From NCBI GenBank assembly GCA_002719615.1, contig PBHZ01000018.1, forward strand, positions 49,940 through 90,388: a stretch of DNA of 40,449 nt, in the 5' to 3' direction. Numbering within the stretch: position 1 is the first letter of the stretch; each line of letters begins with the position of its first letter. Of this stretch, positions 1-14,241 are shown in pieces. A model generated the notes under the pieces. It was not told the DNA's origin. It ran no database searches and worked only from the letters and a program-made list of their open reading frames with translations. The DNA comes from Methanobacteriota archaeon. GTDB lineage: Archaea > Thermoplasmatota > Poseidoniia > Poseidoniales > Thalassarchaeaceae. The position numbers were made by a program, and so were the translations under genes.

Positions 1-483
1 CCTGCAATAAATTGGCTTAGTTCATATTCATTATATCCTCCGTCGTTAGATCAATGGTATAGGGATAACATTAAGGCTGATTTCCCGGAAGTAAGGACTC
101 AAATAAGCTCACTTTTACAAGTAGAAGCAGAGTTACAAGAAATTGTTCAATTAGTTGGTTCTGACGCACTTCCAGTAGATCAACAACTAACTTTGGAAGT
201 TGCTCGTATGATTAGAGAATTTTTCTTACAGCAAAATGCATTCCATGATGTAGATACCTACAGTGATCTAAAACTGCAATATACAATGGCTAAAGCTATT
301 CTTTCATTCCAGGAAGAATCTAAGAAAGCACTCGCAGGTGGGTCAGCATTAGAAGATGTAGTAAATGTCCCTGCAAGGACGGATTTAATGAGAGGGAGAT
401 TTGAATCTGGTTATGAAGATCGAATAGAAGAAATGCTAGAAGAAATGACTAAACAAATTTCTAATACTATGGAGGCCAACTAA
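1..483 (+). CDS. atpA: A/V-type ATP synthase subunit A, C-terminal part (truncated by window start)
   Basis: Open frame 1 from base 1 (PAINWLSSYSLYPPSLDQWY...); C-terminal helical domain of V/A-ATPase A subunit, directly followed by subunits B and D. Confidence 0.9.
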   Translation, partial: PAINWLSSYSLYPPSLDQWYRDNIKADFPEVRTQISSLLQVEAELQEIVQLVGSDALPVDQQLTLEVARMIREFFLQQNAFHDVDTYSDLKLQYTMAKAILSFQEESKKALAGGSALEDVVNVPARTDLMRGRFESGYEDRIEEMLEEMTKQISNTMEAN

Positions 484-486
484 GGA

Positions 487-1881
487 GTGATAAAAATGAC
501 TGGAAAAGAATATAGAACAATTACTGATGTAAAAGGACCTTTAGTGTTCTTGAATAAGACTGAACCTGTTGCCTTTGGAGAAATCGTTGAACTACGTCTC
601 TCCGATGGTACTATGAAAAATGGACAGGTTCTAGATACTTCTGATGATCAAGTTATTGTACAAGTTTTTGAAGGGACTGCTTCAATAGATAAACAAACAG
701 GTATCAAGTTTCTTGGAGATGTATTCAAATTACCTGTCAGTAAGGATATGATAGGCAGAATTTTGGATGGAGCAGGAAGGCCTAGGGATGGCGGACCATC
801 TATAGTTGCCGACGATATGGCAGATATTATCGGCGCTGCTATAAATCCCTACTCAAGACAAAGCCCATCTTCTTTTATCCAAACAGGGATATCGGCTATA
901 GATGCTTGTACTTCACTGGTAAGGGGGCAAAAATTGCCTATATTCAGTGCATCGGGATTGCCGCATAATGATATTGCACTACAAATTGCTAGGCAGGCAA
1001 AATTAGTGGATAGTGATGATGATTTCGTAGTAGTATTCTGTGCAATGGGAATTACAGCAGAAGAATACAATTTCTTCGTCCATGATTTAGAAAGAACAGG
1101 GGCTCTTGAAAATGCATGTTTGTTCGTCAATCTTGCAGACGACCCTGCTGTTGAGAGATTAATCACTCCTAGGTTGGCATTAACCGCTGCAGAATATCTA
1201 GCATTTGAGCATGATTATCATGTTTTAGTCATATATACAGACATGACAAACTATTGTGAATCACTACGTCAAATTGGCGCAGCACGTGAAGAAGTTCCAG
1301 GTAGACGAGGATATCCAGGTTACATGTATACAGATCTAGCAATGCTATATGAGCGTGCAGGATTAGTTAAAGGTAAGAAAGGATCAATTACTCAATTCCC
1401 TATATTGACAATGCCGGGAGATGATATTACTCATCCAATACCAGACCTTTCAGGATATATTACTGAAGGACAAATAGTAATTTCTCGTGAATTACATCAA
1501 AAAGGAATTTATCCTCCAATAAATGTTCTACCATCTCTATCTAGATTGATGAATGCAGGTATTGGAGATGGAAAGACACGTGAAGACCATAAATCAGTCT
1601 CTGACCAATTATATGCAGCATATGCCCAAGGGAGGGAGTTAAGAGGTTTGGTTGCAATTGTAGGTGAAGACGCTTTGAATGAACGAGATCTGCAATTACT
1701 CAAGTTTGCTGATATTTTTGAAAATCAATTCCTTAGACAAAGTAGAGATGAAGATCGATCCATAGGAGAGGGTACACTTGATTATGCATGGGAGCTACTT
1801 TCTAATATAGACACCAAATATCTCGTCCGTCTAGATCAAAAATGGATTGATAAATATCATCCAAATGAGAAGAAAAAATAA
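487..1881 (+). CDS. atpB: A/V-type ATP synthase subunit B
   Basis: 464 aa; [72 protein letters not shown] and [17 protein letters not shown] are diagnostic of subunit B. Confidence 0.98.
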
Positions 1882-1910: not shown

Positions 1911-2528
1911 ATGGCACTAGATATTAAGCCCACAAGATCGGAATTAATCAATTTGAAACGTAGGATAAAGCAAACTTCCAGTGGATATAATCTTCTAAAA
2001 ATGAAAAGGGATGGTTTATTTTTTGAATTCAGGACTTTACTTGCTGAAATGATTGCTGCAAGGGAAGAACTCGTAGAAACATACAGAGACGCACTAAAAT
2101 CAATTGCACTGGCATCCTCAATCGAAGGAGGTTTAGCCGTAAAAAGTGCTGCAATAGCTGCAACAAATGGGCCAGAGGTAATGGTATCCAGGAGAAATAT
2201 AATGGGTGTTGTAGTCCCAAAGGTAGAAGGAACTAATCTAACTACTACTGTTGAAACGAGGCCTACTGGAATAATTGGGGGTTCTCCATATATCGATGAG
2301 TCAGCAGATTCCTATTCCATTTTAATAGCGAAAATTGTCAAAGCCGCAGAGATGGAAGCCACACTTAAGAGACTATTAGAAGAGATTGAAGCAACAAAGA
2401 GAAGAGTTAATGCTCTTGAATTTGTAGTAATTCCTGAGATGAAAGAAGCTCAGACCTTTATACAATTAAGATTAGAAGAAATGGAAAGGGAAGAAACCTT
2501 CAGACTAAAACGCTTTAAGAACAAGTGA
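1911..2528 (+). CDS. atpD: A/V-type ATP synthase subunit D
   Basis: 205 aa; PTRSELINLKRRIKQTSSGYNLLKMKRDGLFFEF and RVNALEFVVIPEMKEAQTFIQLRLEEMEREETFRLKRFK. Confidence 0.97.
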   Translation: MALDIKPTRSELINLKRRIKQTSSGYNLLKMKRDGLFFEFRTLLAEMIAAREELVETYRDALKSIALASSIEGGLAVKSAAIAATNGPEVMVSRRNIMGVVVPKVEGTNLTTTVETRPTGIIGGSPYIDESADSYSILIAKIVKAAEMEATLKRLLEEIEATKRRVNALEFVVIPEMKEAQTFIQLRLEEMEREETFRLKRFKNK

Positions 2529-2603
2529 TTAAAAATGTGATTATTCTAGTGAGAGGTATCTTATCAGTCAACATTGGCGGAGGATATAAGGAGGTATCTC
2601 ATA

Positions 2604-5015
2604 ATGAAAGCTCAACAATCTATATATCTTGATACTGAGACGTGGAGTAATCAGGAATTCACTGAAGTTATTGCTTCAAGGTATTTTATATTGGGCCAGG
2701 AAACTAATCAACAATCTTCATGGGAAGTTAGAAGCCCAAACGATATGGAAATTGATGAATGTTTAATTCTTCTCAATAATCATTTGGAGTCATTAGGGTT
2801 AATAGGCATATTGAGTGGCGAGGGAATGCCTGTACTGAGTATAATTAATTTACCAATTTCTCCAAGTGTTTCAAGCTCATTTCAGCAATTTCTAATTTGG
2901 ATACTCATGTCAATTTTTCTGACTATAGTTGGTGCTGAATGGCTTGGGTTGTATGATGTGGGCGATAGTATTCTCGATGGCAATACCATCCGTCAATCAT
3001 TATTTTATTTCACATTTCCAATAATCTTTTCTTTGTTGTTATGCAGTAATTTAAGATACTGGATGGCTAAAAATTATGACATTGATAGTGGCCATATAAT
3101 TCCCATAATATTTCCAATTCTTTATCCGACATGGCCTTTTGGTTTAACTGGTATTTTATCTCAAAAAAGAATAGATAAGATACCATTTCCAAATCGAAAA
3201 AAATTAGCCATTATTGAGTCTATACTACCAATATCTATATTTTTCTTGGGTGCTACTTTTACCATGATAGGACTCAGTATAACTTCGAATGAGCCGCCAG
3301 ATTTAGAAGACTCCCCTATAATATTTGATCTTAATCCATTTACTCAAACCTTTGCTTCTTTAATGTTTGAAAATTATGAATTAAAATTACAATGGTTACA
3401 CCCTATTGGAATAGCAGGAATAGGACTTTCTATGATTGGTTGGATTCTTTTATTACCTATTCCAGGTTTTCCTGGTGATAGATTATTATATTCGATTTTC
3501 GGAACTTCTGAAATGTCTAAGGGGAACCTACAAACTTCTTTATTTATCATATCTCTTGTAATTATGATGTTCACTTTTGCCTTTGTTAATTATTTACCTT
3601 GGCTATTCTTGATTGCTTTTTCTACTTGGCAGCGTTTTAGCCCCGAGAATAGTATTATTCCATTTATAGTAAACCAGAGTACTGAACTAAGTAACAACTT
3701 TAAATCCAAAATCACTATTCTACTAATTTCTGTGATGATTATTGGATTTCCAGGGCTTGCTCCCATCACAACTTTGGAAGAATACGATTCTGGATTATCA
3801 ACAAGCAATTGGGAAACAGACTTGGAAATTCCTCAATTCGGAGAGGGAAATATTACTTTGGACCTCCGTCCAAAGGGAATTTTGCCTGTTTCTGGATTTT
3901 TACAATTTAGTATTGAAGGAAGTCATTCAGAGAATTGGGAAATAAACTCCACTTGTGAATTGTCCAATTTATGTCATTTCAGTAACATAACACAAAATAA
4001 TAACCAATTAATAAAAATATTGATACATGCGCCGGATTATTCCTTCGAAGAAAAATTTTATCTTAGAATAATTATTGATGTAAATGGTTATGAAGAAGAA
4101 CATATGGTTTTTTTATACAATAATTTATACTCAGGCCCAACAGATGTATTCTGGGAAATTTCTGAAAATACTAATAATCCTAAAATTTGCACAAAATTAA
4201 ATATCATCTCAGGCGATCAAGGTAATTTGTCTTTGACAAATCCCTTTTGGAACTTCGTAAACTCTTCAATTGTTAATGAAGAATTCAGTGAGTTATGTTT
4301 AATCGGTCATGAGGGGGCTTTATTCTCTTCAAATGATGTTGATCAACAATTCCGTCGGTATGGCCCGACGATTCAATTTATTAGAGAAAATAATACTACA
4401 CTTGAGTGGTTAATGCCAATAGAAAATACTGAACCTATTGTGTATGTTTCTGATGCTGAGTGGACAATTCCTTTTTGGCTAAATTCAGGAAATAATCAAT
4501 ACTCTATTATTTATGGTTCTGAGAATCCATCCTTTTGTAAGTCTAGTGATATAGTAACAGAAGTAGGTTCAAACTGGACTTTACCTTTGGAAGAATATAC
4601 TCCAATAAAATTCTCAAAAGGTGAAATAGTTAATGGAACAATAATTATTCCTTCTTCTGGTTGGATAATGATATGTGATGGTATTATACCAATTCATAAG
4701 TATATCATTGAAGAAGGATTGGACGTTATAATCAATCCAGGCTCAATTAATAATAGAATTACTAATAAATCGTTTACGGCATATAATAGAGAAAATTTCT
4801 CAATCCCAGTCTCGGTAGAATTGTATGGCGATTCAGTTAATGTTGGTGCCTGGGAAGAATACTATGTGCCAAATAATATCGATCCTTTTGGTGAAATAGA
4901 GATAATATTGGATGAAGAATTTAATAATTCTTTGTTCTATGTATCATGGATTTCTATTGATAATAATAATTTGATAATACACAATTCTGTAAGGTGTCCA
5001 GTAAACGGGTGTTAA
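2604..5015 (+). CDS. Large membrane protein with site-2-protease (M50/EGY)-like core lacking catalytic motifs, plus large C-terminal extracytoplasmic region
   Basis: ORF 2574-5015; ATG at 2604 preferred because AAGGAGGT lies just upstream. Multiple TM segments; FPNRKKLAIIESILPISIFFLG and HPIGIAGIGLSMIGWILLLPIPGFPGDRLLYSIFG resemble EGY-type S2P landmarks, but the HExxH position reads CSNLR. Confidence 0.6.
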   Translation: MKAQQSIYLDTETWSNQEFTEVIASRYFILGQETNQQSSWEVRSPNDMEIDECLILLNNHLESLGLIGILSGEGMPVLSIINLPISPSVSSSFQQFLIWILMSIFLTIVGAEWLGLYDVGDSILDGNTIRQSLFYFTFPIIFSLLLCSNLRYWMAKNYDIDSGHIIPIIFPILYPTWPFGLTGILSQKRIDKIPFPNRKKLAIIESILPISIFFLGATFTMIGLSITSNEPPDLEDSPIIFDLNPFTQTFASLMFENYELKLQWLHPIGIAGIGLSMIGWILLLPIPGFPGDRLLYSIFGTSEMSKGNLQTSLFIISLVIMMFTFAFVNYLPWLFLIAFSTWQRFSPENSIIPFIVNQSTELSNNFKSKITILLISVMIIGFPGLAPITTLEEYDSGLSTSNWETDLEIPQFGEGNITLDLRPKGILPVSGFLQFSIEGSHSENWEINSTCELSNLCHFSNITQNNNQLIKILIHAPDYSFEEKFYLRIIIDVNGYEEEHMVFLYNNLYSGPTDVFWEISENTNNPKICTKLNIISGDQGNLSLTNPFWNFVNSSIVNEEFSELCLIGHEGALFSSNDVDQQFRRYGPTIQFIRENNTTLEWLMPIENTEPIVYVSDAEWTIPFWLNSGNNQYSIIYGSENPSFCKSSDIVTEVGSNWTLPLEEYTPIKFSKGEIVNGTIIIPSSGWIMICDGIIPIHKYIIEEGLDVIINPGSINNRITNKSFTAYNRENFSIPVSVELYGDSVNVGAWEEYYVPNNIDPFGEIEIILDEEFNNSLFYVSWISIDNNNLIIHNSVRCPVNGC

Positions 5016-5017
5016 TA

Positions 5018-5968
5018 TTGAGGATTGCAATTTTAGGCATTGGTTCTATTGGTGGAATGTTGCTTGGAGCTCTAGCTGATTCAGATGCCGAATTAATAGC
5101 GGTATCTAGAGGCTATATGGCATCACAAATTTCAGAAAGAGGATTAACATTAAACACTCCAGAAGGGACAGTTGAGCATTTTCCTTCTGAATTATTTACA
5201 GTAATTGATAGCGAATCTGTCCCTATACCTATTCATTTGGCTAATTCTTGCGATTTCACATTAATTTGTGGGAAAAGCCACTCTACTCCCATACTTGCCC
5301 AACTAGCATCTGAATTATTATCCAAAAAAGGAATTGCCATAAGCCTACAAAATGGTCTCGGTCATTCTGAATATCTTTCAAAAAAAATTGGGCAAGGTAA
5401 CGTATTGGGTTGTACTATAACTCATGGTGCTTGGAGAGATGTTAATTCTGTACATTGGGCAGGAAGGGGAAACATAATTCTTGGATCATTGGAAGGCAAA
5501 TCCCCATCCCCTAAAATTAACGATTTTATTTCGTTGTTAGAATCCTCAAACCTCTCTCCAAGTTGGAGTGAAGATATCCACAAGGAAATTTGGATTAAGT
5601 TATTAATAAACATAGCAATAAATCCAATTTGTGCCATAACGAGTTTAAGAAACGGAGAAATTTTACTTCGAAATAATATTTGGGAACAATCTTGCTCAAC
5701 TATGTTAGAAGCATCAATAATTGCTAACTCATTGGGAATTGATATAGATAGTGACGATTTAGTTTCTAAGTTAAAATCAGTTATTAAATCGACTAGAACA
5801 AATCGTTGTTCAATGTTACAAGATATAATGAATGGTAAAAAAACAGAAATCGATTCACTGTGTGGAGAAATAGTTTCTAAGGGAGAGTCTCTAGGAATCC
5901 CGACTCCTTTGAATACAATGCTATATGCGTTGATAAAGGGAATTGAGGATAACACAGAAGTCGAATAG
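5018..5968 (+). CDS. Ketopantoate reductase family (ApbA/PanE-like) 2-dehydropantoate 2-reductase
   Basis: RIAILGIGSIGGMLLGALA Rossmann start, CDFTLICGKSHSTPI, ISLQNGLGHSEYL, KLLINIAINPICAIT, then C-terminal helical domain. Probable TTG start near 5018 inside the ORF call. Confidence 0.85.
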   Translation: MRIAILGIGSIGGMLLGALADSDAELIAVSRGYMASQISERGLTLNTPEGTVEHFPSELFTVIDSESVPIPIHLANSCDFTLICGKSHSTPILAQLASELLSKKGIAISLQNGLGHSEYLSKKIGQGNVLGCTITHGAWRDVNSVHWAGRGNIILGSLEGKSPSPKINDFISLLESSNLSPSWSEDIHKEIWIKLLINIAINPICAITSLRNGEILLRNNIWEQSCSTMLEASIIANSLGIDIDSDDLVSKLKSVIKSTRTNRCSMLQDIMNGKKTEIDSLCGEIVSKGESLGIPTPLNTMLYALIKGIEDNTEVE

Positions 5969-14110: not shown

Positions 14111-14169
14111 ATTCTTTCGGAAGGACAGAAGCGTTTCAATATGTGGTAATGATATCCTGCTAATATTGG

Positions 14170-14241
14170 TGCGCCCGCCGGGATTTGAACCCAGGACATG
14201 AGGTTGGAAACCTCAGGTGATAACCCCTTCACCACAGGCGC
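14170..14241 (-). tRNA. tRNA-Gly (TCC)
   Basis: Minus strand GCGCCTGTGGTGAAGGGGTTATCACCTGAGGTTTCCAACCTCATGTCCTGGGTTCAAATCCCGGCGGGCGCA folds to a full cloverleaf; anticodon loop TTTCCAA; no encoded CCA. Confidence 0.95.

Follow-up and report, generated by a model that had tools for sequence, protein, structure and literature searches.

The window, that is, the whole stretch of 40,449 nucleotides that was analyzed, came from Poseidoniales (Marine Group II) and opened with genes of the A-type ATP synthase. The C-terminal part of subunit A (1..483), subunit B (487..1881) and subunit D (1911..2528) were encoded in this order on the plus strand. The gene of interest, P0001, started 75 nt further on the same strand (2604..5015). 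It was an open frame of 803 aa with its ATG at 2604, and a ribosome-binding site, GGAGGT, was located ahead of it at 2590-2595 (plus strand). On the downstream side, a panE-like ketopantoate reductase gene (4994..5968, plus strand) overlapped its end. The first-pass annotation had read P0001 as a dead site-2 protease (S2P) next to the ATP synthase operon, and atpA, atpB and atpD did lie directly upstream. The sole tRNA found in the window was a tRNA-Gly (anticodon tcc) at 14167-14241 on the minus strand.

All parts of P0001 described here were encoded on the plus strand, and hydropathy gave about seven transmembrane (TM) segments. Residues 1-90 (2604..2873) formed a presumably cytoplasmic N-terminal domain, for which active EGY-like S2Ps had an aligned counterpart; the profile alignment began within this domain. 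The TM helix at 2988..3056 corresponded to the helix that formerly carried HExxH. Residues 147-151 (3042-3056) aligned with HExxH and read CSNLR, with the Cys codon at 3042, as had been proposed. A PNRKK block followed at residues 196-200 (3189..3203) and was common to active relatives; R198 was present in 49/49 orthologs. The parallel drawn earlier to the EGY P-N-R-K-A block was kept, with PNRK at residues 196-199. The TM helix at 3393..3482 was the former carrier of NLLPxGQLDGGH and now read LLPIPGFPGDR (3450-3482). The Asp of LDG was indeed replaced, and Pro290 (3471-3473) occupied its column. The C-terminal TM helices of the core were placed at residues 307-392 (3522..3779) by hydropathy. 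The remainder was a probably extracytoplasmic, order-specific domain of about 400 aa (3801..5012) with 8 Cys and 12 sequons.

Two profiles were compared, one built from 49 Poseidoniales orthologs and the other from the active EGY-like S2Ps that occur in other Thermoplasmatota. The hhalign probability was 99.8% (E 8e-28) over about 340 columns, and the match spanned the N-terminal domain and the membrane core, i.e. the N-terminal half of the protein. Reversed, column-shuffled and PDZ-type S2P profiles served as controls and gave only 0.2-1.4%. The S2P-core homology that had been suggested from a single sequence was thus borne out by the profiles. The window protein alone gave nothing significant in Pfam and NCBIfam scans; a DUF5976 match stayed below the cutoff, and the gathering score of PF02163 in Pfam was not reached. 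Peptidase_M50 (PF02163) matches were obtained in 9/49 orthologs, with a best E of 0.01, and sub-cutoff matches in several orthologs fell on the LDG half (profile positions 142-219). The profile had no significant match in a PDB sequence search, and no further relatives were found in the viral contigs scanned. MGIII is the sister group of Poseidoniales in the same class. Its S2P (HEMGH, GQLDGGH) was found by the window protein itself at E 1e-5 to 4e-3. An AlphaFold model from a shallow alignment (the window protein and four relatives) had a pLDDT of 29 at full length and 46 in the core. The core model at pLDDT 46 gave no significant Foldseek match, and MjS2P (3b4r) ranked fourth at E 2.4.

The catalytic columns were compared between the 49 Poseidoniales orthologs and 27 active relatives. 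HExxH and LDG were both gone in 49/49 orthologs, whereas H, E, H and D were all kept in 27/27 active relatives. The first position of HExxH was mainly A in the Poseidoniales proteins and C in the window protein. The PNR block, HP..AG and the LLP motif were still present in the orthologs. The N-terminal domain, the TM core and these three motifs were common to the Poseidoniales protein and the EGY-like S2Ps of Thermoplasmatota (PF02163), such as that of MGIII. However, the Poseidoniales protein differed from the active enzymes in lacking HExxH and the LDG Asp and in having its own Cys-containing C-terminal domain. The first-pass annotation had raised the question of whether loss of HExxH is fixed in related archaea, and a core HExxH was found in 0/49 aligned orthologs. 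An HEQRH in the C-terminal part of one ortholog (L062), outside the core, appears to be a coincidence. The motif loss was order-wide, and P0001 is almost certainly an EGY-like S2P by descent that is catalytically dead, as judged from its sequence.

Orthologs of this pseudoprotease were present in 170/172 sampled Poseidoniales genomes, with the 21 genomes of family f3 counted apart, and each genome had one copy. One of the two genomes without it (G015) was also without atpD, which suggested a missing contig. When the active MGIII EGY-like S2P was used as the query, only the pseudoprotease or nothing was obtained among the Poseidoniales genomes listed. The same query in other orders of the phylum gave EGY-like S2Ps as best matches at E 1e-37 or better. 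These searches suggested that the ancestral active EGY-like S2P was lost or converted in Poseidoniales, whereas MGIII keeps an active one. Two other intact S2P types were found in Poseidoniales, a PDZ-type enzyme (HEYSH, HEYGH or HEFGH) and a short S2P. The short proteins inspected (L144-L148) carried either HEIxH or HELAH together with PLDG in open frames of about 280-385 aa, and were apparently intact.

The C-terminal domain was homologous between both Poseidoniales families (99.7%, E 6e-27). There was no detectable relation between it and the domain of the MGIII S2P, which was without Cys. By sequence comparison, the domain of about 400 aa is order-specific, and a large C-terminal extension as such was also present in many active EGY-like S2Ps of Thermoplasmatota. 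In the window protein, the domain contained 12 N-x-S/T sequons, whereas shuffled sequence would give 6.3 (p about 0.009). All 59 orthologs had 6 or 8 Cys within their last 400 aa, at conserved columns. The sequons and the 6 or 8 Cys indicated that the domain is probably extracytoplasmic. With about seven TM segments and an assumed cytoplasmic N-terminus, it would also lie outside. Of the earlier description of this region as sequon-rich and extracytoplasmic, the sequon excess held, and the outside location is probable by inference.

The gene order around atpD was then compared among genomes. In 74/75 genomes having both genes, the pseudoprotease gene followed atpD on the same strand with a gap of 53-150 nt. 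In the one exception (G074), the two genes were on different contigs. No atpD was found in two genomes (G039 and G030), where the pseudoprotease match began 86 nt or less from a contig end. The panE gene was located 3' of the pseudoprotease gene in the window and in 10/10 fetched Poseidoniales loci. The atpD-pseudoprotease-panE block was kept in both Poseidoniales families, and further genes of the window (fpg, rlmE and others) were not near the block in the other genera fetched. In MGIII (G078, G079 and G080), atpD and the active S2P gene were on different contigs with other neighbors. The active MGIII gene was observed between TFB-like and dihydroorotase-like genes, named from their sequences, at two loci (L086 and L090).

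Inactive intramembrane proteases are known from other organisms. Plant EGY3 is an S2P pseudoprotease that was termed the only pseudoenzyme of its family and was identified only in plant cells (PMC9355673). EGY3 was reported to stabilize CSD2, and under high light egy3 mutants over-accumulated the ATP synthase proteins ATPE and PDE334 (PMC9355673). As it is described there, EGY3 resembles the Poseidoniales protein in being an inactive S2P homolog retained as a conserved membrane protein, and differs in being a chloroplast protein (PMC9355673). The first-pass annotation had pointed to iRhoms instead. Like the Poseidoniales protein, iRhoms are intramembrane pseudoproteases, and their reported role is to regulate rather than to cut (PMC3149277). 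They are related to rhomboid serine proteases, whereas the Poseidoniales protein is related to S2P. Plant EGY3 was the closer precedent, within M50. In the open-licence literature searched, EGY3 was the only published precedent found for an inactive S2P, and an earlier archaeal description elsewhere is possible.

By analogy with these proteins, it is somewhat probable that the Poseidoniales protein is a scaffold in the membrane or binds clients there, without proteolysis. Zn binding and cleavage would have been lost, and the retained membrane core might still bind transmembrane segments or subunits. The C-terminal domain outside the cell would provide a second binding surface. The pseudoprotease might then serve in the membrane as a scaffold, chaperone or stability factor that does not cut, like EGY3 and iRhoms. 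Since the ATP-synthase neighborhood was fixed, that complex would be the first client candidate, through its assembly or quality control. The link to ATP synthase was drawn from gene order only, and we consider it doubtful. The fullest version is similarly speculative and rather unlikely as a whole. In the ancestor of Poseidoniales, the sole EGY-like protease would have lost catalysis and gained an outer domain with disulfide bonds. Its gene would have come to lie behind those of the ATP synthase, and the protein would have become a dedicated assembly or stability factor of the A-type ATP synthase.

The dead S2P might instead have its job elsewhere, such as envelope sensing or regulation of either intact S2P, with the atpD neighborhood being merely historical. 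The PDZ-type and short S2Ps retained in Poseidoniales would be available for such regulation, and the large C-terminal domain would fit a sensor. The active MGIII relative was located elsewhere, next to TFB and dihydroorotase genes, and the MGIII atpD had other neighbors, which was also consistent with a neighborhood of no functional meaning. However, the atpD-pseudoprotease-panE block was held in both families, whereas the next genes of the window were not in the genera fetched. We regard this explanation as a serious possibility at less than an even chance. In Poseidoniales, an ancient membrane-cutting protease probably became a partner protein of the membrane that no longer cuts, and its job is possibly related to ATP synthase. 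The fixed atpD neighborhood offers a testable client for an archaeal dead S2P.

A second group of altered S2Ps was identified in family f27, which comprised Thermoplasma-like genomes. These genomes carried an active EGY-like S2P and a second EGY-like paralog. In this paralog RExxK/R replaced HExxH in 11/11 proteins (L112-L122), and the LDG Asp was kept. It is apparently another archaeal pseudoprotease clade, as indicated by the motif replacement. Like the Poseidoniales protein, it was an S2P homolog without HExxH and with a C-terminal extension. Unlike the Poseidoniales protein, it had RExxK/R, kept LDG and occurred in the same genomes as an active EGY-like S2P. In the tree, each dead clade formed one side of a branch. 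The reading was taken from a second tree, for which the rows were sampled more thinly and one sequence (L101, branch 4.62, probably misaligned) was left out. Neither a joint clade of the Poseidoniales proteins with the f27 dead paralog nor a clade with MGIII was rejected in this tree. The two groups could thus represent one ancient pseudoprotease paralog with a single inactivation, and one clade was not rejected by the AU test (p 0.40). However, the inactivation differed, with RExxK/R and LDG kept in one group and mostly ASxx[R/Q] and FPG in the other. In addition, the match to the active family was far stronger for the f27 profile (E 7e-62) than for the Poseidoniales profile (E 8e-28). A single inactivation is therefore unlikely. 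An order of marine archaea in which a dead S2P has become fixed, together with a second inactive clade in Thermoplasma-like archaea, would mean that intramembrane metalloproteases became non-enzymes outside plants too.

Several of the replaced catalytic positions were themselves strongly conserved. The E position of HExxH was Ser in 45/49 orthologs, and the second-His position was R or Q in 45/49 and H in two. The LDG Asp column was Pro in 49/49, and P287 and P290 were invariant. Such conservation might be expected of a protein that still cuts with unorthodox residues. However, the metal ligand set of the old site was kept in no ortholog; the first His was mostly Ala and the Asp was always Pro, and residual proteolysis is very improbable. 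A decaying gene that yields no functional protein might explain the long branch between the pseudoprotease clade and active relatives, but the frames were open, the gene was retained in nearly all genomes and the Cys pattern was conserved, which left this explanation with almost no weight. Each of the three parts of the protein had a dN/dS of 0.08-0.15 against three close relatives, and these values indicated that the pseudoprotease gene is under purifying selection.
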